Shown: positions 691 to 50,089 of the stretch, one piece after another
Position numbering within the stretch: position 1 is the stretch's first letter
How the letters are laid out: each line of letters starts with the position of its first letter
From: a virus
Length of the DNA: 64,000 nt
IMG/VR virus record: IMGVR_UViG_3300042691_021691
Location: 28,846 to 92,845 of that record
Direction: 5' to 3' (one strand)
Notes under the pieces: model-generated
Database searches by the model: none
Told to the model about the DNA's origin: nothing
Seen by the model: only the letters and a program-made list of their open reading frames with translations
Made by a program: the position numbers and the translations under genes

Positions 691-1182
691 ATGACTAAAA
701 ATTCTTTATTGGTACGTCCGAGAAGTTGGGTGGGATCGGTTTTTAATGAACGTGATTCGTTTGTTAATTCATTTGATCAAATTTTCGATGAAATGCTTAA
801 GACACAGTTCCCAGAAGCATTTACCGAAATTGGCGCAAATCCAATTGGTAGAGCAGCGTATCCAAAGGTTAATGTAGTAGCAAAAGAAAATTCATTGGTT
901 ATTGAGGCGGAGCTAGCAGGACTGAAAAAGGAAGAAATTGATCTAGATGTTAAGGATACGATTCTAACAATTTCAGGAAAAGCTACTTCCACCGAAGCGG
1001 CAGAAAATACGGTTTATGTAATTAGAGAATTAAAGCGATCTGGTTTTAGTCGTGCATTTGTGCTTGGTAAACAATTTGATACTTCTAAAATTAGTGCAAC
1101 ATTTGAAAACGGGTTACTGACAATTGAAATTCCAAGATTTATTAAGGAAGACAGTAACCCACAAAAGGTTACGATTAAGTAA
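691..1182 (+). CDS. hsp20: Small heat shock protein, Hsp20/alpha-crystallin family
   Basis: A 163-residue small heat shock protein. The alpha-crystallin domain runs from about residue 55 to 155: it opens with a PKVNVVAKENSLVIEAELAG strand pair, continues with EEIDLDVKDTILTISGKA, and ends with ENGLLTIEIPR, the usual hydrophobic strand. The N-terminal arm (1-50) is variable, as is usual in the family. These proteins are ATP-independent holdases. Homologues are a hallmark of T4-like cyanophages and related marine myoviruses, where they are thought to help virion protein folding. An AGGAGT ribosome binding site precedes the ATG, and a two-hairpin leader and an octamer motif lie upstream. Start and family are confident. 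Confidence 0.93.
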   Translation: MTKNSLLVRPRSWVGSVFNERDSFVNSFDQIFDEMLKTQFPEAFTEIGANPIGRAAYPKVNVVAKENSLVIEAELAGLKKEEIDLDVKDTILTISGKATSTEAAENTVYVIRELKRSGFSRAFVLGKQFDTSKISATFENGLLTIEIPRFIKEDSNPQKVTIK

Positions 1183-1192
1183 AAACCTTAAA

Positions 1193-1276
1193 TAACTAGG
1201 AGGGCTAACGTAATGATTCGTAGTTTTAAATCAGCAGTAGTTAATCACAAAAACTATAACCGATATAACTAGGAGG
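1193..1276 (+). repeat. Direct repeat TAACTAGGAGG (two copies)
   Basis: The 11-mer TAACTAGGAGG occurs at 1193-1203 and again at 1266-1276. Each copy holds a perfect AGGAGG Shine-Dalgarno core. The first is well placed for the 19-codon ORF at 1213. The second overlaps that ORF's stop codon and has no start codon at a normal distance downstream. Confidence 0.8.
1213..1272 (+). CDS. Putative 19-residue basic mini-protein / leader peptide
   Basis: A short ORF, ATG at 1213 to TAG at 1270-1272, encodes MIRSFKSAVVNHKNYNRYN. It is basic (two Arg, two Lys, no acidic residue) and has an excellent ribosome binding site, AGGAGGG, nine bases upstream. Its TAG stop lies inside a second AGGAGG element. The last codons form the left arm of a hairpin (1255-1294), so translating the ORF would open that hairpin. 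This suggests a leader peptide, though a real micro-protein is possible. No homologue is recognised and such short ORFs arise by chance, so confidence is modest. Confidence 0.4.
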   Translation: MIRSFKSAVVNHKNYNRYN

Positions 1277-1294
1277 TGATCCACATCGGTTATA
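1255..1294 (+). promoter_or_regulatory. Hairpin presenting a 13-nt complement of the 16S rRNA 3' end
   Basis: A perfect 10-bp stem (TATAACCGAT at 1255-1264 with ATCGGTTATA at 1285-1294) encloses a 20-nt loop. The loop contains AGGAGGTGATCCA (1271-1283), which is exactly complementary to the bacterial 16S 3' tail UGGAUCACCUCCU. No ATG, GTG or TTG lies 5-13 nt downstream that opens a reasonable frame; the next ATG, at 1315, is about 32 nt past the element and opens only 12 codons. It is therefore an orphan, unusually long Shine-Dalgarno element. Confidence 0.7.
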
Positions 1295-1325: not shown

Positions 1326-1360
1326 AACGGGGTCATTGAGAACCACTCTTTGACCCCGTT
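1326..1360 (+). terminator. Stem-loop upstream of the membrane protein gene (terminator-like or regulatory)
   Basis: The perfect 10-bp inverted repeat AACGGGGTCA (1326-1335) / TGACCCCGTT (1351-1360) encloses 15 nt, with a possible inner GAG/CTC pairing. The following bases, CATTCATTTG, are not a proper U-tract. It could be a weak terminator, an mRNA-end protector or a leader structure for the gene at 1384. Confidence 0.45.
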
Positions 1361-1383: not shown

Positions 1384-2439
1384 ATGATAACACTACATAG
1401 ATTGATAGTATTTACGGCATTTTGTATAGCAGCGGCAGCAGCATATTTTTCAGTTACAGGAATAGGAAAATTATTTGCAGGTGCAGCTATGTCGGCAATG
1501 GTTATGGCAAGTGCGTTAGAATTAGGAAAGCTGGTATCGGTTTCATTCTTATATCGATATTGGAAAATTATACCTCGTGCATTAAAAACTTATATGACTG
1601 CTGGCAGTATAGTTTTAATAGCTATAACATCCGCTGGTATATATGGATATCTTTCATCTGCGTATGCTACAGTTGCCGCTACGCCATTAAAAATGAACGC
1701 AGATATACAAATTTTAGATGCACAGGCAAAAACTTTAGATGAAGAAATTCAAAGAAAGACAAATAGATTAGATCAAATTATTTCTCTTCGTGGACAGCAA
1801 GAATCTAGAATTGATAATTTGATTGCAAAAAGTACAACTGGTTCTAATACTACAATTAGAACGGCGCAAAATTCATTGCGAGAATTAGATAGAACAGCAT
1901 CGGCGTTACAACAAGAAATAAACAAAACATCCGCTCAACGTGATAGCCTACGGGCAAAAAGTCTAACAACAGGTGTTGAAATTAATACTAATTCCGACAT
2001 AGGAACTTTTATGTATATTGCAAATGCAATAGGAGTTCCATTAGATACTGTAGTTAAATGGTTTATATTAGTTATTGTCTTGGTGTTTGATCCTTTGTCT
2101 ATTAGCTTAGTATTAGCATATAATTTTCTAAAAATGCAAGAAACTAAAAGTGTGGAATCCAAGCCTATAGAAGATGAAAAGGAATTGCCGTTGTATACAC
2201 CGGAGCCAATAGCAGAAAAAATAGAATTGGTGGAAGCAGAAGAACTTACACCAGACATACCTGCTGTATTAGATTTGCCAACCGAAGAAGTAATTAATAA
2301 AATTGATTATAATCAAATATATAATGATCCAATGCCATATTATATGAATTCAAAATATGATTGGAACAAAGATCAACGATGGGAAACCGACCCATCTGCT
2401 ATAGCATTCAAAAGATATTTAGATAACAAAACCATATAA
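1384..2439 (+). CDS. Multi-pass membrane protein with central coiled coil, unknown function
   Basis: A 351-residue membrane protein. Hydrophobic segments lie near residues 5-25, 33-52 and 70-92. A long polar, heptad-like region (about 105-195, rich in Gln, Asp, Arg and Leu) follows, then another hydrophobic segment near 222-250. The C-terminal tail is acidic and proline-containing and ends in an aromatic motif around PMPYYMNSKYDWNKDQRW. This layout places the coiled coil on one side of the membrane and the tail on the other. No function is recognised. Superinfection exclusion or host-envelope remodelling are possible but not shown. A weak purine-rich site (AGAGAAA) precedes the ATG. Confidence 0.6.
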   Translation: MITLHRLIVFTAFCIAAAAAYFSVTGIGKLFAGAAMSAMVMASALELGKLVSVSFLYRYWKIIPRALKTYMTAGSIVLIAITSAGIYGYLSSAYATVAATPLKMNADIQILDAQAKTLDEEIQRKTNRLDQIISLRGQQESRIDNLIAKSTTGSNTTIRTAQNSLRELDRTASALQQEINKTSAQRDSLRAKSLTTGVEINTNSDIGTFMYIANAIGVPLDTVVKWFILVIVLVFDPLSISLVLAYNFLKMQETKSVESKPIEDEKELPLYTPEPIAEKIELVEAEELTPDIPAVLDLPTEEVINKIDYNQIYNDPMPYYMNSKYDWNKDQRWETDPSAIAFKRYLDNKTI

Positions 2440-2515: not shown

Positions 2516-3412
2516 ATGTCGCATCAAGTTGGTTACTGCTGTATTAATCTAACTCTACAAGATACTCGTAAAATTACAACTAATCGTGGCATGATTCAAC
2601 GAACGTTCCTTGAGCGAGGCGTTAATTATGCATCAGAGCTTGCATTACAAAATGCGCGTGACTTAGTAGAAATTATTAAATGGAATGCAGAAAATAATAT
2701 TAAAGTATTCCGACTATCATCCAATCTATTCCCTTGGAATTCTAAATATAAGCTATCAGACTTGCCCGACTACGATGCTATCTGTCAACATCTTCTAGCA
2801 GCGGGTAATCTTGCGCGTAATACGGGACAGAGAATTACTGCACATCCTGATCATTTTGTTAAGCTAGGTTCTACTAAGCCAGACGTAGTAGATAATGCCA
2901 TTCATGATCTCGAACACCATTCAGAAGTATTTGATCTTATGGGACTATCTGCTACGCATTATAATTGCCTTAACATTCACGTGGGTATGAATTTCGCAAC
3001 TGATACAGTTACTCGTTGGTTGCATGCATTTGATCGTCTATCCGATAACTGCAAAAAGAGACTAGTTGTAGAAAATGATGACAAAGCTTCGGCGTTTTCT
3101 GTTCAACAACTCTATGATAATATTTACAAGAATATTCGTATTCCAATTACATTTGATTATTTCCATCATCAATTTCATTCTGATGGGATTACCACAAAAG
3201 ATGCGGCAGTATTGTCGGCGTTTACGTGGGATGTTCGACCGCTGTTTCACTATAGTGAATCAAAAAATCTGAATGAAAACGTATCTGGTAACCCACGAGC
3301 ACACGCAGACTATGTGTTTAGTAAGATTGATGATTTTGATCTTAATATCGATGTAGATTTGGAAGCAAAAGCAAAAGAACTCGCACTATTAAAATACCGG
3401 AATCTATCATGA
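2516..3412 (+). CDS. uvsE: UV damage endonuclease (UvsE/UVDE family)
   Basis: A 298-residue TIM-barrel nuclease of the UvsE/UVDE type, close to the family's bacterial length. UVDE cuts 5' of UV photoproducts using a metal cluster of His, Glu and Asp residues. Candidate ligands visible here are His110 (HPDHFVKLGS), His155 (NIHVG), Glu186 (VVENDD) and the FDYFHHQFH block. The opening GYCCINLTL and the RLSSNLFPW block are also family-typical. It follows a strong sigma70 promoter and the SD CAAGGA, and overlaps the next gene by 4 nt (ATGA). It probably repairs phage DNA damaged by sunlight, in line with a surface-water lifestyle. The family call is confident. Confidence 0.9.
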   Translation: MSHQVGYCCINLTLQDTRKITTNRGMIQRTFLERGVNYASELALQNARDLVEIIKWNAENNIKVFRLSSNLFPWNSKYKLSDLPDYDAICQHLLAAGNLARNTGQRITAHPDHFVKLGSTKPDVVDNAIHDLEHHSEVFDLMGLSATHYNCLNIHVGMNFATDTVTRWLHAFDRLSDNCKKRLVVENDDKASAFSVQQLYDNIYKNIRIPITFDYFHHQFHSDGITTKDAAVLSAFTWDVRPLFHYSESKNLNENVSGNPRAHADYVFSKIDDFDLNIDVDLEAKAKELALLKYRNLS

Positions 3413-4043: not shown

Positions 4044-5078
4044 ATGTATGAATGCCTAACATATGATGATATAAATCTAGTTCCCGCCTATAGTGAGATC
4101 GAAAGCCGTCAAAATATTGATCTTACGACACAATTAACTACTAATTATAGTTTAATGGTTCCGCTCATCGCAAGTCCTATGGATACGGTATGTGATGTTG
4201 ATATGGCTATTGCAATGGCTGAAATGGGTGGTGTAGGATGTATTCATCGATTTATGTCCATTGAAGAGCAAGCGGAGCAAATACGGGATGTAAAATTTTC
4301 TATACGCGACAGCATCTATTATGAAAGATGGAACGGTATGGAAATTCCCTATATGGCTGCGGTTGGAGCCAATGGTGATTATTTAGAACGGGCACAAGAG
4401 TTGACAAATAAAGGTGCAAATGTTATATTAATTGATGTGGCACACGGACATCACAAATTTGTCAAAGATGCTATTGAAAATTTAAAGAACAAGCTACCAT
4501 CACACGTTGATATTATTGCTGGGAATGTAGCTACTGCTCAAGCTGCAATGGATTTAGAGGATTGGGGAGCTAATGCAATTCGAGTGGGTATAGGCGGCGG
4601 ATCATTATGCACAACCAGAATTAAAACTGGATTCGGTGTTCCTAATATTACATCACTAGAACAATCTTCTAATTCGACATCGGTTCCAATTATTGCATGT
4701 GGTGGAATTCGTTCAAGTGGAGACATTGCGAAAGCACTGGCTGTTGGGGCAAGCTCTGTAATTCTAGGTTCTTTATTAGCAGGAACAAAGGAAGCGCCTG
4801 GGGCAATTATTGAGAAGTCTACTGGTTTATATAAGCGTTATCGTGGGGCAGCTTCTTTGGAAACCAAGACAGTGCATGGTCAAGTGCAACGTAACGTGGA
4901 AGGGGAATCCACCGTAGTTCCGTTCAAAGGTGGGGCAAAATTTGTTATAGAAGGGTTATTGGATGGGCTTAGGTCGGCACTGTCATATGCAGGAGCACAA
5001 AGCTTATCTAAATTTAATCCTGAATATGTCAGAGTAACAAATGCAGGAATAACAGAAGGAAGACCGCATTTGTTATAA
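4044..5078 (+). CDS. guaB: IMP dehydrogenase / GMP reductase family enzyme
   Basis: A 344-residue (beta/alpha)8 enzyme of the IMPDH/GMPR family without CBS domains. The catalytic loop GIGGGSLCTTR puts the active Cys at 189; the usual Gly-Pro-Gly reads Gly-Gly-Gly here. The flap shows RYRG at 265-268, corresponding to the IMPDH catalytic Arg-Tyr region, and the C-terminus (VPFKGG, GGLRS-like DGLRSALSYAGA, VRVTNAGITEGRPH) resembles IMPDH more than GMPR. IMPDH oxidises IMP to XMP with NAD+, the committing step to guanine nucleotides. It follows the glycosyltransferase after 2 nt. A phage copy would raise the GTP pool. The family is certain; the IMPDH-over-GMPR assignment is likely. Confidence 0.85.
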   Translation: MYECLTYDDINLVPAYSEIESRQNIDLTTQLTTNYSLMVPLIASPMDTVCDVDMAIAMAEMGGVGCIHRFMSIEEQAEQIRDVKFSIRDSIYYERWNGMEIPYMAAVGANGDYLERAQELTNKGANVILIDVAHGHHKFVKDAIENLKNKLPSHVDIIAGNVATAQAAMDLEDWGANAIRVGIGGGSLCTTRIKTGFGVPNITSLEQSSNSTSVPIIACGGIRSSGDIAKALAVGASSVILGSLLAGTKEAPGAIIEKSTGLYKRYRGAASLETKTVHGQVQRNVEGESTVVPFKGGAKFVIEGLLDGLRSALSYAGAQSLSKFNPEYVRVTNAGITEGRPHLL

Positions 5079-42341: not shown

Positions 42342-44234
42342 ATGGTAGATACCAGCGTATACGGTAGATTAAAACGTCTCTTTTCTACAAATACAATTGT
42401 TAGAAATATTGGTGGTAAGAAGCTAAGAGTAGCTGATACCGACAATATTCAATCATTTGTAAATCGAAGAGGAGTTGACAGATATAGTAGAGTTCATACT
42501 TCTGGTGGATCTGGAGGATACGGATCTGTCAATGGAAGATATGAACATGCCGCTGCGTTCCAAGGTTCCAGATTGCAACTGTTCAGAGACTATGATATGA
42601 TGGATGCGGATGCTATTATTTCATCCGTATTAGATATTTACGCAGACGAAAGTACCATCAAAGATGAATTTGGGCAAATACTAGGTATCAAATCTTCAAA
42701 TAATAACGTAAAAGAAATCTTACATAATCTATTTTATGATATTTTAAATATTGATTTTAATTTATGGCCTTGGGTCAGAAATATGGTCAAATATGGAGAT
42801 TTCTTTTTATATCTAGATATTGATCAAGAATACGGAATCGTTAATGTAGTGCCACTTTCTGTATACGAAACGGTTAGAATTGAAGGCGAAGATCCGGCAA
42901 ATCCGTTCGGTGTAAAATTTAAATTACAAAATGATTTTTTGAACTTAGGTAAAGACGAACTAGAAAATTTTGAAGTGGCACATTTTCGTCTATTGGCAGA
43001 TACTAATTTCCTTCCTTATGGCAAGGCGATGATTGAAGGTGGTCGCCGTGTTTGGAAGCAATTGCAGCTTATGGAAGATGCGATGTTAATCCATCGTATT
43101 ATGAGAGCACCAGACAAGCGCAAATTTTTGATAGACGTTGGAAATATTCCACCGGCAGAAGTTGATCAATTCATGTCTAGAATCATTGAAAAAATGAAAA
43201 AGACACCATTGGTTGATCCAAGAACCGGCGATTATAATTTGCGTTATAATATGATGAATATTACGGAAGATTTTTATCTACCGGTACGTGGTAGAGATAG
43301 CGGCACCGATATTCAAACCATGCAAGGTCTCTCGTTCAATGCTATAGAAGACATTGAATACCTCCGCAAAAAATTAATGGCGGCATTTAAAGTACCTAAG
43401 TCATTCATTGGATACGAAGAAGACTTAAGCGGAAAAGCCACATTAGCCTCACAAGATGTGAGATTCGCCAGAACAATTGAACGCATTCAGCGTATTATGA
43501 TTTCTGAATTAACTAAGATCGCAATCATTCATTTATATGTCCAAGGATTTAGAGATGAAGATTTGATCGATTTTGAGTTAACTATTTCTTCTCCATCAAT
43601 GATTTATGAGCAAGAAAAAATCAGTCTTTGGAATGAAAAGATTGGATTGGCGGATAATTTAGTAAATTCTAAGTTAATTTCGGAAGAATGGGTATACAAA
43701 AACATCTTTGAAATGACCGATGAAGAAATTTCAAATGAAAGAACGGCAATAGAATCGGATATTCGAAGAAAGGCAGAATTGAAGAGAATAGAAACGCAAA
43801 TATCTCAGCCGCCTGTATCCGTCGATAATCAAGCCGATATAGCAGAGCCACAGGCAGAAACTGAACCGGAGCAACAAAGTTCCGAAGAAGATGAATTACA
43901 ATCTGCAGAAAAGGAATTAGATGATACTTCTTCCGGCGATGAATTGGGAGAAGCGTTAACTGAACTGGATTTGTTAGAAACTGATGATGAAGATGAAGAA
44001 ATAGAAGAAGCCCGTCGAGTGGGAAGACCACGTGAAGGGCTGAAATATTCAAAAGATTCGCATCCATTCGGAAGAGATCCGCTGGGAAAGAAATCGGCAT
44101 TTGCAAGCAGAGGCGATGAACGAAATATAAAACACAAAAAATCATTGGTTAAAATATTAGCTAAAGAGTTGGAAGATATAACTATAGCCAATTCCGTCGC
44201 GCAAATTTTGACCGAAGATCTGGATAAATCATAA
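42342..44234 (+). CDS. gp20: Portal vertex protein (gp20)
   Basis: 630 residues. Strong gp20 signatures include FRDYDMMDADAIISSVLDIYADES, LWPWVRNMVKYGDFFLYLDI, RAPDKRKFLIDVGN-like (RIMRAPDKRKFLIDVGNIPP), the middle NITEDFYLPVRGRDSGTDIQ and KAFIGYEEDL-type VPKSFIGYEEDLSGKA. The portal dodecamer forms the vertex for head assembly and DNA packaging. Compared with T4 gp20 (524), a C-terminal extension of about 100 residues exists: acidic up to about 560, then RVGRPREGLKYSKDSHPFGR and a helical end. SD CGGAGG is excellent. Confidence 0.95.
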   Translation: MVDTSVYGRLKRLFSTNTIVRNIGGKKLRVADTDNIQSFVNRRGVDRYSRVHTSGGSGGYGSVNGRYEHAAAFQGSRLQLFRDYDMMDADAIISSVLDIYADESTIKDEFGQILGIKSSNNNVKEILHNLFYDILNIDFNLWPWVRNMVKYGDFFLYLDIDQEYGIVNVVPLSVYETVRIEGEDPANPFGVKFKLQNDFLNLGKDELENFEVAHFRLLADTNFLPYGKAMIEGGRRVWKQLQLMEDAMLIHRIMRAPDKRKFLIDVGNIPPAEVDQFMSRIIEKMKKTPLVDPRTGDYNLRYNMMNITEDFYLPVRGRDSGTDIQTMQGLSFNAIEDIEYLRKKLMAAFKVPKSFIGYEEDLSGKATLASQDVRFARTIERIQRIMISELTKIAIIHLYVQGFRDEDLIDFELTISSPSMIYEQEKISLWNEKIGLADNLVNSKLISEEWVYKNIFEMTDEEISNERTAIESDIRRKAELKRIETQISQPPVSVDNQADIAEPQAETEPEQQSSEEDELQSAEKELDDTSSGDELGEALTELDLLETDDEDEEIEEARRVGRPREGLKYSKDSHPFGRDPLGKKSAFASRGDERNIKHKKSLVKILAKELEDITIANSVAQILTEDLDKS

Positions 44235-45700: not shown

Positions 45701-46288
45701 ATGAAAAATTTACTAGTAGAATACAATGTAATTCAATATTCACCGCAATTATTGAATGAAGCTGCGGATATAACAAAGCCATTATTGTTGAAGCATGTAG
45801 TTTTACAACGTGCAGATACTAAGAATCAAAATGGTAGAGTTTATCCACGGGAAATTTTAATGCGAGAAGCAAAAGCATATAAAGATAATTTTGTTTCGCA
45901 ACGCAGAGCACTTGGTGAATTAGATCATCCAGAAAGTCCAGTGGTCAATCTTAAAAATGTATGTTGTAACGTGGTGGATATGTGGACAGAAAATCAAGAC
46001 GTAGTGGGTAACATCGAAATTCTATCTACTCCAGCAGGTAATATAGTTAGAGAGCTAATCAAAAATAATATACGTCTTGGTGTTTCGTCAAGAGGAATGG
46101 GTTCTGTTCAGAGTGTTGGTGAAAATACATTAGAAGTTCAGGAAGATTTCAATTTAATTTGTTTTGATATCGTTTCTAACCCATCCACACAGGGTGCGTT
46201 TATAAATGAAAACACTGAACAAAAGATTATAACGCCATATTCTAAAATCGATACTTTAATTTATGACTTTTTATCGGAAGTTAAATAG
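45701..46288 (+). CDS. gp21: Prohead core protease (gp21)
   Basis: 195 residues, the T4 gp21 family of serine proteases. Motifs in order: VLQRADTKNQNGRVYPREIL, GELDHPESP with His76, then GVSSRGMGSV with candidate catalytic Ser129/130, and the CFDIVSNPSTQGAF block with Asp156. Gp21 degrades scaffold and trims capsid proteins during head maturation. It precedes the scaffold and capsid genes as in T4. Confidence 0.93.
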   Translation: MKNLLVEYNVIQYSPQLLNEAADITKPLLLKHVVLQRADTKNQNGRVYPREILMREAKAYKDNFVSQRRALGELDHPESPVVNLKNVCCNVVDMWTENQDVVGNIEILSTPAGNIVRELIKNNIRLGVSSRGMGSVQSVGENTLEVQEDFNLICFDIVSNPSTQGAFINENTEQKIITPYSKIDTLIYDFLSEVK

Positions 46289-46601: not shown

Positions 46602-47036
46602 ATGCCTGCAATAAGTCGTGCTCAACAGAGATTATTCGGGTTGGTTAGGGGATTGCAGAAAGGAAAAATATCTGCTGCTTCTGTAAGTCCGCATGTCAGA
46701 AAATTGGCACGTAATCTTACACCAGCCGATGTAGAAAAATATGCAACTACACCGCACACAGGGCTTCCTTCCACGGTTAAAGAAATCTTATCAATTCAAG
46801 AAGATACATCCGATCTATATGAAGATGTAACTGAACGAGAGTTGGCAATTAACAATATATTGAAAGATAAGACTGCTAAGAAAATTGATGGAAAAACAGT
46901 CGATGGATTTACTGCGAAAATGATAGTAGACACATGCAATTCATTGAGTCCTGACAATAAAAAAACATTTTTGATGCAACCAATCGATAAAATGGTGGGT
47001 ATTGCTCATAAGATAAAAACTTTACAAAATAATTAA
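46602..47036 (+). CDS. DUF3008-like small protein
   Basis: 144 residues. The N-terminal part MPAISRAQQRLFGLVRGLQK, then GKISAASVSPHVRKLA, followed by DVEKYATTPHTGLPSTVKE, resembles the DUF3008 family (MPAxSKAQQRLMGMVYAYKK...FAxTxHKGLP) common in T4-like phages. The C-terminal half (60-144) is an added helical domain. Role unknown; a DNA or capsid association is thinkable. Confidence 0.7.
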   Translation: MPAISRAQQRLFGLVRGLQKGKISAASVSPHVRKLARNLTPADVEKYATTPHTGLPSTVKEILSIQEDTSDLYEDVTERELAINNILKDKTAKKIDGKTVDGFTAKMIVDTCNSLSPDNKKTFLMQPIDKMVGIAHKIKTLQNN

Positions 47037-47051
47037 TAGGAGATATAAGTT

Positions 47052-47270
47052 ATGTATGTTGAAGTAAAGGGGGATTCAAAGGATGACTTTGAACGCGCAC
47101 TAAAGCACTTTTCTAAGATAGTTAAAAAAAATGATATTGTAAATGAAGTTAAGAGACGGGAGTTTTATGTGACTCCCTCCAAGAAAAGAATATTAAAAAG
47201 ACAAGAATCTAAGCGAAGACAGATCAGAGATGCTCGCAAGATGCAAAAGAGAACGCAAACAGATTGGTAA
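47052..47270 (+). CDS. rpsU: Phage-encoded ribosomal protein bS21
   Basis: 72 residues. The fold is bS21: a short beta strand YVEVKGDSKDDFERALKHFS, the helical FSKIVKKNDIVNEVKRREFY block with the diagnostic VKRREFYVTPSKKR, and a basic C-terminal helix (KRRQIRDARKMQKRTQ). It is close to the bacterial length of 60-75. bS21 binds 16S rRNA near the anti-SD region and the platform and affects initiation. Phage copies are known from SAR11 phages and large phages. SD ATAGGAG lies 12 nt upstream. A 13-nt complement of the 16S tail exists at 1271-1283. Confidence 0.93.
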   Translation: MYVEVKGDSKDDFERALKHFSKIVKKNDIVNEVKRREFYVTPSKKRILKRQESKRRQIRDARKMQKRTQTDW

Positions 47271-47299
47271 AAAAACCTATTTTTTGTAAAATAAGGATA

Positions 47300-47307
47300 T
47301 ATTTATC
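47300..47307 (+). promoter_or_regulatory. TATTTATC late-promoter-like octamer before scaffold
   Basis: A one-base variant of the octamer within ATATTTATC, 90 nt upstream of the scaffold ATG. The 127-nt gap also holds a palindrome and an imperfect AGCT-type hairpin. Confidence 0.4.
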
Positions 47308-47353
47308 TTCAGTAGCTCTTTTCAATAAAAAGCTCGTATTGCTAAGTTAACCA

Positions 47354-47369
47354 ATTATTTGCAAATAAT
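47354..47369 (+). repeat. 16-bp perfect palindrome upstream of scaffold gene
   Basis: ATTATTTGCAAATAAT is a perfect dyad 28 nt upstream of the scaffold ATG. In DNA it could be an operator; in RNA it would be a weak AT-rich hairpin. GCAAAT recurs directly downstream at 47370. Confidence 0.6.
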
Positions 47370-47397
47370 GCAAATATAACTGTTTAGGGATAATATT

Positions 47398-48501
47398 ATG
47401 GCAGAAATAACAAATGAACTTCTAAAGAAAGCAGTGGCGGATGCCGAAGCAGTTCGTGAAACTGCAATTGCAAACGCAAGACTTGCTTTAGAAGAAAGTA
47501 TCACCCCAGCTATCAAATCAATGTTAGCAAAGCGCCTTCGTGCAGAAGCTGAAAAGCCAGCCGAAGAACTTCCAGCACCAGAAGGTGAAAAGGAAGTGGA
47601 AAAGAAAGAAGCAGATGCGGATCATAAAGAAATGAAGCAAGAAGAATTAGATTCTTCCGATGTATCTGCTGATAATAAGGAACCATCAGGGTTCGATTCT
47701 TCCGAAATCGGTGACGAAGGCGAAGAAGCACCTGAAGATGCTCCTGAAAGCGAAGATGATTGGTATGAAGATTGGGATGAATCAGATTTCGATCTTGATG
47801 AAATCTTGAAAGAACTCGAAGGTGATATTTCTGAAGACAGCTTATTTGAAAAGTCACACGACGAAGAAGAGAAGGAAGAAGATTCTATGGAAGAAAAGAT
47901 GGAATCTCCTGAACATGAAGCAGGTGAAAAGGAAGATCACCAAAAAGAAGCCAAGACTGTTGAACTTCCTAAGAAGGGAGAACCAGAACATGGTTCAGAA
48001 GAAGGAAAAGAAGAAGACAAGCTTGATCTTGAAGCTATTATTCGTGAACTTGTAGCCGAAGCCGATGATGAAGAAGGTGAAGATGAAGAAAACGGCAAAA
48101 TGGCGGCAGAAATTGCGGAACTCAAGTCGGAACTTTCTGAATACCAACGTGCAGTTAAAATGTTGAGCAGTAAGTTACAAGAAGTTCATCTTCTCAATTC
48201 AAAGTTACTCTTTACAAACAAATTGTTCCAGAAGGGTAAGCTTACAAATGAACAAACTGTTCGTGTAATTGAATCATTTGATCGTGCGAAGACGCTTCGC
48301 GAAGTGAAGATGGTATATGCACTTATGGTGGAAAACTTAAAGGCTATCCGCACAGAAGGTCGCACACCTTCACGTAAGGCAGTAGTAACAGAAGGATTGG
48401 CTTCACGCCCAACTCCATCAACTGCTCCAAAGAATGTGGAACAATTGCAAGAGAACACAGCTATCAAACGTCTACAATACCTAGCTGGTATTAACAACTA
48501 A
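47398..48501 (+). CDS. gp22: Prohead scaffolding core protein (gp22-like)
   Basis: 367 residues, extremely acidic in the middle (residues about 55-235 are roughly half Glu/Asp). An N-terminal helix (ELLKKAVADAEAVRETAIAN) and a C-terminal helical region (ELKSELSEYQRAVKMLSSKL, then TNKLFQKGKLTNEQTVRVIES) are more conserved. This layout is that of gp22-type scaffold proteins. It lies directly before gp23 and after the protease, the T4 order. Scaffold builds the core and is degraded by gp21. Moderate length increase over T4 gp22 (269). Confidence 0.85.
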   Translation: MAEITNELLKKAVADAEAVRETAIANARLALEESITPAIKSMLAKRLRAEAEKPAEELPAPEGEKEVEKKEADADHKEMKQEELDSSDVSADNKEPSGFDSSEIGDEGEEAPEDAPESEDDWYEDWDESDFDLDEILKELEGDISEDSLFEKSHDEEEKEEDSMEEKMESPEHEAGEKEDHQKEAKTVELPKKGEPEHGSEEGKEEDKLDLEAIIRELVAEADDEEGEDEENGKMAAEIAELKSELSEYQRAVKMLSSKLQEVHLLNSKLLFTNKLFQKGKLTNEQTVRVIESFDRAKTLREVKMVYALMVENLKAIRTEGRTPSRKAVVTEGLASRPTPSTAPKNVEQLQENTAIKRLQYLAGINN

Positions 48502-48526: not shown

Positions 48527-50089
48527 ATGTCAGTAAGCGATTTTATCAACGAAGCCCGTTCCGCGCATGATGTAATTTTGCAACAAACACGTGGCTTATC
48601 TAAGAAGTGGGAACGTTCAGGTCTTCTAGAAGGATTGAACGGATATGAGAAGCAAGGTATGTCAGTTATGCTTGAAAACCAAGCACAACAACTTATCTCA
48701 GAAAACTCAACAACAAATCCAGGTGGTGCTGGTTCATCAGGTGAAAACTGGGCAGGCGTAGCACTTCCATTGGTTCGTAAGGTCTTTGGTTCAATTGCAT
48801 CGAAGAATTTCGTATCAGTTCAACCAATGAATCTTCCAGCCGGACTTGTATTCTATATGGATTTCAAGTATGGCACAACTGTAAATGGTAAGACAGATGG
48901 TGGTTCACTCTATGGATTAACCAGCGGTGCAAATGCATTAACTGGTGGTTTATACGGAGCAGGATCATTCGGATATAGCATCAACGATCAAATCAAGACA
49001 GGTTTGAGCGTCACATCAGGCAGCACAGCTTCATTTGCTGATGTAAACTTCAATGCAACATATTCAGCATCAGTAGCAGCAGGCGGATTAACGGTATATT
49101 CAATACCTCTTTCAGGATTAACACGCCCAGATACAAACGCGGTACGTGTATGGGAACCATCAGGTTCAGGCGTAAACTTTGCTACGGCAACGTTGAAGGA
49201 ATTTACAAAAGTTGTTGGTTCAAACGTACAATTCGTTGTAAACTCAACAGCAACAGGTACAATTGCTAGCTTGAACTATGTAGAACAACCATCCGATACA
49301 ACTCGTGGCGACTTCGAAGATCGCACTGGTTCAGATATCGGTATTCCAGAAATCGATCTTGAACTTCGTTCAGAAACCATCGTTGCCAAGACTCGTAAAT
49401 TGAAGGCAGTATGGTCACCAGAACTTGCTCAAGACTTGAATGCATACCACTCAATTGATGCCGAAGCAGAATTGACATCACTATTGAGCGAATACATCTC
49501 AACAGAAATCGATCTTGAAATCTTGGACATGTTGGTCAGTGCAGCCGACACAACAGAATACTGGTCAGCTAAGATCGGTGATGTATGGAATGGTTCAACA
49601 TTCGCAGCTTCATCATTCGTAGGAACAGCTTGGACAAACATGACCTGGTTCCAAACACTTGGTCAGAAGATGCAGAAGGTATCAAACATCATCCACCAAA
49701 AGACAATGCGTGGTGGTGCTAACTTCGCAGTAGTTTCTCCAACTGTTGCAACAATCTTGGAAACAATCCCAGGATTCTTAGCCGATACAAACGGCGACAA
49801 GATGGAATTCTCAGCCGGAATCACTAAGGTTGGTTCATTCCAAAACCGCTTCACAATCTACAAGAACCCATACATGACCGAAAACGTAATGTTGCTTGGT
49901 TATCGTGGCGCACAATTCTTGGAAACTGGTGCTGTATATGCTCCATACATTCCATTAATTATGACACCTCTTGTATACGATCCAACTAACTTCACACCAC
50001 GTAGAGGCGTAATGACCCGCTACGCGAAGAAGGTAGTACGTCCTGAATTCTTCGGTAAGATCTTAATTGCCGACTTGAATTTAGTCTAA
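48527..50089 (+). CDS. gp23: Major capsid protein (gp23)
   Basis: 520 residues, HK97-fold T4 gp23 family. It begins with a short N-terminal pro-segment and contains SSGENWAGVALPLVRKVFGS, the SVQPMNLPAGLVFYMDFKYG block, a beta-rich insertion, then SRTIVAKTRKLKAVWSPELAQD-like (SETIVAKTRKLKAVWSPELA) and a NPYMTENVMLLGYRGAQFLE end. It is the main shell protein; the gp21 cleavage site cannot be fixed here. Codon use is biased to C-ending and CGT codons, as expected for high expression. A strong terminator follows. Confidence 0.96.
   Translation: MSVSDFINEARSAHDVILQQTRGLSKKWERSGLLEGLNGYEKQGMSVMLENQAQQLISENSTTNPGGAGSSGENWAGVALPLVRKVFGSIASKNFVSVQPMNLPAGLVFYMDFKYGTTVNGKTDGGSLYGLTSGANALTGGLYGAGSFGYSINDQIKTGLSVTSGSTASFADVNFNATYSASVAAGGLTVYSIPLSGLTRPDTNAVRVWEPSGSGVNFATATLKEFTKVVGSNVQFVVNSTATGTIASLNYVEQPSDTTRGDFEDRTGSDIGIPEIDLELRSETIVAKTRKLKAVWSPELAQDLNAYHSIDAEAELTSLLSEYISTEIDLEILDMLVSAADTTEYWSAKIGDVWNGSTFAASSFVGTAWTNMTWFQTLGQKMQKVSNIIHQKTMRGGANFAVVSPTVATILETIPGFLADTNGDKMEFSAGITKVGSFQNRFTIYKNPYMTENVMLLGYRGAQFLETGAVYAPYIPLIMTPLVYDPTNFTPRRGVMTRYAKKVVRPEFFGKILIADLNLV

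Follow-up and report, generated by a model that had tools for sequence, protein, structure and literature searches.

The uncultured phage studied here encodes its own copy of the ribosomal protein bS21, and we put at roughly 0.65 the probability that this protein enters the 30S subunits of its host and favours availability of the anti-Shine–Dalgarno (anti-SD) sequence for phage mRNAs led by a Shine–Dalgarno (SD) sequence. Its gene lies in the 64,000-nucleotide stretch of DNA that we analysed as a whole (the window), which is part of a virus contig of 92,845 bases. Most probably it encodes an ordinary bS21 of non-Bacteroidota type in the head cassette of a T4-like phage clade with SD-led mRNAs. 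To our knowledge, bS21 is the commonest viral ribosomal protein.

In agreement with the original prediction of a 72-residue bS21 homologue, the open reading frame (ORF) matched both Pfam PF01165 Ribosomal_S21 (E 2.9e-14; 53 bits, cut-off 27; profile positions 3–54 of 55) and NCBIfam TIGR00030 S21p (E 3e-13; 49.4 bits, cut-off 28.95) above the curated cut-offs. It also matched PHROG 21469 ('ribosomal protein S21') and, in the PDB, 38 distinct sequences from many phyla, all of them bS21 or organelle homologues, with the Borrelia-like 8fmw as the best match (E 2.2e-9). The core motif R-R-E-F-Y..(K/T)PS is present as RREFYVTPS at residues 35–43. AlphaFold2 predicted a two-helix fold with a basic C-terminal helix (helices 10–38 and 42–70; mean pLDDT 78, pTM 0.38); a Foldseek search of the PDB with this model retrieved no bS21, which is uninformative for such a model. 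Judged from its sequence, the identity of the ORF as bS21 is certain. Nucleotide differences among the relatives of the gene amount to pS 0.44–0.93 versus pN 0.02–0.26. The profile matches, the same slot in relatives and this excess of synonymous over non-synonymous changes thus mark bS21 as a real and maintained gene under purifying selection.

The surrounding cassette runs entirely on the + strand in the order TerL, portal, two unknown genes, protease, EF-hand/dockerin-like ORF, unknown ORF, bS21, putative scaffold, capsid protein and sheath (Table 1). A location among the late genes had been proposed, and bS21 indeed sits among the head genes. The more precise placement between prohead protease and scaffold is right as to the head cassette but needs two corrections: two ORFs separate bS21 from the protease, and the scaffold label is positional. 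The scaffold candidate matched none of the Pfam and PHROG models; it is assigned putatively by its position, its acidity and its homology with the counterpart gene in relatives. The 127-nt gap between bS21 and this gene (47271–47397) holds an A/T-rich block and a small hairpin, which occur at the same place in relatives with differing stem sequences; the gap is a possible late promoter or terminator. An interpretation of its hairpin, which carries CACCTC in relatives, as an anti-SD mimic was dropped; the window and locus L003 have an unrelated stem there. Elsewhere, the window encodes an IMP dehydrogenase/GMP reductase-type enzyme (4044–5078) and a UV-damage endonuclease UvdE (2516–3412).

Table 1. 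Positions of the features discussed in the text, numbered from the first letter of the window
Feature	Position	Strand	Evidence or remark
HSP20 small heat-shock protein gene, 5′ of leader	691..1182	+	PF00011 2.1e-20
Mini-ORF (MIRSFKSAVVNHKNYNRYN) with own strong SD; stop codon abuts extended SD	1213..1272	+	Sequence; architecture kept in relatives
Conserved hairpin (TATAACCGAT/ATCGGTTATA) with extended SD in loop	1255..1294	+	Sequence, alignment of relatives
Extended SD AGGAGGTGATCC, 12 nt perfectly complementary to 16S rRNA 3′ tail	1271..1282	+	No start codon at SD spacing
Terminator-like hairpin (ACGGGGTCA/TGACCCCGT)	1327..1359	+	T-run weak in window
Membrane/coiled-coil protein gene, 3′ of leader	1384..2439	+	Relatives in viral contigs: 355 candidate stretches
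Portal protein gp20	42342..44234	+	PF07230 9.5e-65
Prohead protease gp21	45701..46288	+	PF03420 3e-25
Small ORF, two dockerin/EF-hand-like (calcium-binding) repeats, N-terminal hydrophobic segment	46298..46600	+	PF00404 2e-8
Conserved phage ORF, function unassigned, directly 5′ of bS21	46602..47036	+	phrog_28725 2.5e-13; syntenic in relatives
AGGAG Shine–Dalgarno of bS21 gene	47038..47042	+	9 nt before ATG; duplex −7.3 kcal/mol
Phage bS21 (rpsU) gene, 72 aa	47052..47270	+	ATG start
Putative scaffold/prohead core protein, acidic	47398..48501	+	Lies between bS21 and gp23; relatives have homologues
Major capsid protein gp23	48527..50089	+	PF07068 1.4e-74

In one scan of viral contigs, 60 IMG/VR contigs were found to encode a relative of the window bS21, and the gene always occupies the same position in the cassette, in the same orientation. 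In a bS21 tree, the window protein and its relatives (35 phage rows) formed one clade with SH-aLRT 100 and a long stem, placed among cellular bS21 in what is a poorly resolved, midpoint-rooted tree of 72 columns. This tree comprised residues 1–62 only of F. johnsoniae bS21 and a row for E. coli bS21. In a degenerate-pattern scan of genome contigs, the nearest cellular bS21 among the matches listed reached no more than 43% identity across most of the protein. We thus see no sign of recent capture from cells at the level of sequence, although a closer cellular bS21 may be missed by such a pattern-limited scan. Scanning genome contigs with the single window protein yielded no relative, and a tblastn search of 50,697 phage records with the window bS21 returned nothing at E 0.01; a more distant query retrieved bS21 from Pelagibacter and Pseudomonas phages, but with weak matches only. 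Among the portal relatives, hosts are known for Microcystis phage Mel-JY01, with a very divergent bS21 at the corresponding position, and for Flavobacterium phage immuto, with no bS21. Phage bS21 in a head-gene slot is already known (Chen 2022; Mizuno 2019), and the window gene adds one more case. Its distinguishing marks are an association with SD use and the absence of the Tyr54 lock.

In F. johnsoniae, bS21 governs access to the anti-SD (PMC9976891), which is locked by its Tyr54 (7JIL; PMC9976891; PMC9723584), and with Y54A or delta-C bS21 the ribosomes shift to strong-SD mRNAs (PMC9976891). Alignment by the PS motif places Arg55 of the window bS21 at the position of Tyr54, and Arg is found there in 13 of 13 phage rows. 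With simple ORF calls, an SD core precedes 55% of the window ORFs versus 14% at control positions; the corresponding value for phage immuto, without bS21, is 2%. SD use amounts to 32–70% in bS21-positive relatives and to 0–24% in bS21-negative ones. The same split (positives mostly 0.36–0.70) was seen when the comparison set was collected through a distant member's portal gene instead of through bS21. On a portal tree of 31 tips, bS21 presence and SD use were concordant at 30; the lone discordant tip, L403, combines a Bacteroidota-like bS21 (KFDAIGVVKELRDRQQFTKPSVTKRE) with an SD use of 0.11. L403 and L363 represent one related phage lineage in which SD sequences are hardly used and the Bacteroidota-like bS21 lacks an aromatic residue at position 54. 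A naive Mann–Whitney test of bS21 against SD use gave p 7e-6, a value that takes no account of relatedness and also covers loci retrieved through bS21 itself, and the portal tree holds only 2–3 independent changes, with which a sign test is not significant and cannot become so. Presence of bS21 thus tracks SD use in a strong pattern of few independent trials, and because of these few changes the association is only suggestive. It may be a simple reflection of host type. Taken with the lost anti-SD-locking residue, the link leads to the testable idea that phage bS21 serves SD–anti-SD recognition.

Late tuning of host ribosomes by phage bS21, as suggested for this phage in the original prediction, is a published hypothesis (PMC9723584, PMC6375957), and here as well it is a hypothesis that extends beyond what can be read from the DNA. 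In our preferred reading, bS21 would be made together with the head genes and thus late, swap into host 30S subunits by displacing host bS21, and come to lie on the 30S platform beside the 16S 3′ tail. The anti-SD would thereby be kept or made available, allowing efficient initiation on the SD-led mRNAs of the phage in a host that probably uses SD itself. Phage bS21 has been found to be co-transcribed with capsid genes (PMC9723584), and pelagiphage bS21 enters E. coli 70S ribosomes; only about 5% of these ribosomes were active in vitro (PMC6375957), which counts against the proposed role.

Alternatively, the phage protein might sustain the bS21 level or replace degraded host bS21 with no selectivity for mRNAs. 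The window bS21 domain is normal, bS21 is a small, exchangeable and loosely held subunit, and viruses favour dynamic ribosomal proteins (PMC6375957), all of which would suit a mere supply protein. That bS21 correlates with SD use and stands on a long separate branch suggests more than dosage, however, and we consider this reading doubtful. A different host is assumed if bS21 without the Tyr54 lock were to free the anti-SD of SD-less, Bacteroidota-like ribosomes, such that the SD mRNAs of the phage outcompete those of the host. Arg at the Tyr54 position and SD use by phage genes agree with this, as do the SD-less relatives that lack bS21, one of them a Flavobacterium phage, and the preference for strong-SD mRNAs conferred by the F. 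johnsoniae bS21 variants (PMC9976891). Yet SD use by a phage usually implies an SD-using host, early phage genes would be translated before bS21 appears, and the rest of the window bS21 has no Bacteroidota-like residues, so such an unlocking seems unlikely. Finally, a function off the ribosome, e.g., in regulation or, by virtue of a basic protein that binds nucleic acid, inside the prohead, is very improbable: bS21 is highly basic, always lies beside the protease/scaffold genes, and packaging has been raised as a possibility (PMC9723584), but residues of the ribosomal family are conserved, the HMM match is full-length, and bS21 of a cultivated phage enters ribosomes (PMC6375957).

The extreme SD-like element that had been noted in the same genome is real and is located in the loop of a leader hairpin. 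The bare motif count is unsurprising for one window; it is the conservation that is surprising. About 35 viral contigs carry the same hairpin 5′ of homologues of the 1384–2439 gene, syntenic after an HSP20 gene and in most loci 110–147 nt from the downstream gene, for whose window protein a Pfam search gave no match. In 28 of 28 distinct loci, 11–13 contiguous nucleotides can pair with the 16S 3′ tail, and substitutions within the paired run are Watson–Crick or wobble neutral. Predicted RNA duplex energies for this pairing are −19 to −25 kcal/mol. The main stem is 95.9% paired, versus 22–36% when slid, and has two compensatory pairs; covariation is modest, because most of the stem is invariant. 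RNAalifold preferred another pairing for the full 23-sequence alignment, as three distant members use different stems, and folding of the leader within a longer piece of the window also gave a minimum-energy structure that differs from the hairpin. Read from the sequence, the SD and the CGGTTAC block after it persist in the distant members L252–L254 and L258, where they are enclosed in other stems. In its 5′ strand, helix 45 of the E. coli 16S rRNA is complementary to CGGTTAC, so that the leader element may mirror a larger part of the 16S 3′ end.

Nearly all loci have a mini-ORF, preceded by an SD of its own, whose end lies 1–6 nt before the motif. Its peptide usually is Cys-rich in relatives and has no Cys in the window. 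The tiny Cys-rich peptides found just 5′ of the SD hairpin in L221–L249, e.g., MCSCNSGVCTCGTGCTCSCCLTHITD, resemble a Cys-codon attenuator leader or a metal-binding peptide. On the other side, relatives feature a terminator-like hairpin with a T-run, immediately followed by the SD and ATG start of the downstream gene. An Rfam search of the leader gave no family at the gathering threshold, and we regard a sub-threshold match to ar35 (22.9 bits, cut-off 45) as fortuitous. An SD-like match in phage immuto was rejected as the same element, since it lies inside a GroEL-like coding sequence and has no hairpin. Literature searches for a conserved SD hairpin found no description. The leader looks like a ribosome-binding trap, which could work as an attenuator or, by analogy, as a small RNA or STAB-SD-like stabiliser.

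Both bS21 and the hairpin are present in six contigs that cover both loci (G000, G017, G027, G031, G037 and G040); wherever the hairpin occurs in a contig with both loci, bS21 accompanies it. bS21 is absent from three close relatives (G047, G053 and G065), whose portal–protease–scaffold–capsid cassette is intact, and from three more distant ones; in these six, no extended SD was found 5′ of the 1384–2439 homologue. G043, a distant phage with the hairpin, shares an identical portal with the bS21-positive L339. Many relatives with bS21 lack the hairpin. Several large bS21-positive contigs of other lineages show not even a 10-nt match to the motif, and we therefore reject the idea that phage bS21 generally works with the hairpin, which hence is a clade trait and not a necessary bS21 partner. 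Co-inheritance within one clade can explain the overlap. We may tentatively speculate, at low odds, that the lock-less bS21 and the leader RNA jointly redirect translation, with the hairpin capturing or sensing 30S subunits after a translated mini-ORF, i.e., as a sponge, an attenuator or a sensor of the bS21 state. If the hairpin works as it looks, it would represent a novel class of ribosome-directed viral RNA, and its conservation merits a separate study.

Among known systems, the leader element compares with the rpsU extended SD known from Flavobacteriales (McNutt et al. 2023, PMC9976891): both have an exceptionally long stretch complementary to the 16S 3′ tail, in connection with bS21. Its pairing is stronger than the −13 kcal/mol used there as criterion, calculated with a program setting that differs from that of the paper. 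The Flavobacteriales element directly precedes the rpsU start, whereas the phage element is a leader hairpin without start codon, located 46 kb from bS21, after a mini-ORF and before a terminator. Microcystis phage Mel-JY01 (PP395634) likewise uses SD, and its head cassette, related to that of the window, has RpsU in the same slot; in contrast, this protein shares 38% identity with the window bS21 and falls outside its clade, and the SD hairpin was not found in this phage.

Pelagibacter phage HTVC008M (Mizuno et al. 2019, PMC6375957) provides a further example of bS21 in an aquatic myovirus, and its protein enters E. coli ribosomes. HTVC008M bS21 was traced to the Pelagibacter host, whereas the window bS21 has no close cellular source among the matches listed. 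Like the bS21 of huge Bacteroidetes phages (Chen et al. 2022, PMC9723584), which were described from freshwater myoviruses, the window protein is encoded among terminase, portal, prohead protease and capsid genes and belongs to a separate phage clade. In those phages, bS21 is encoded on the strand opposite to the structural genes and has an aromatic residue at the Tyr54 position. In contrast, the gene lies on the same strand in the window and all relatives, the window protein has Arg at this position, and the window phage uses SD. By their residue 54 equivalent and gene orientation, the window bS21 and its about 60 relatives hence are of a type different from the published Bacteroidetes-phage bS21.
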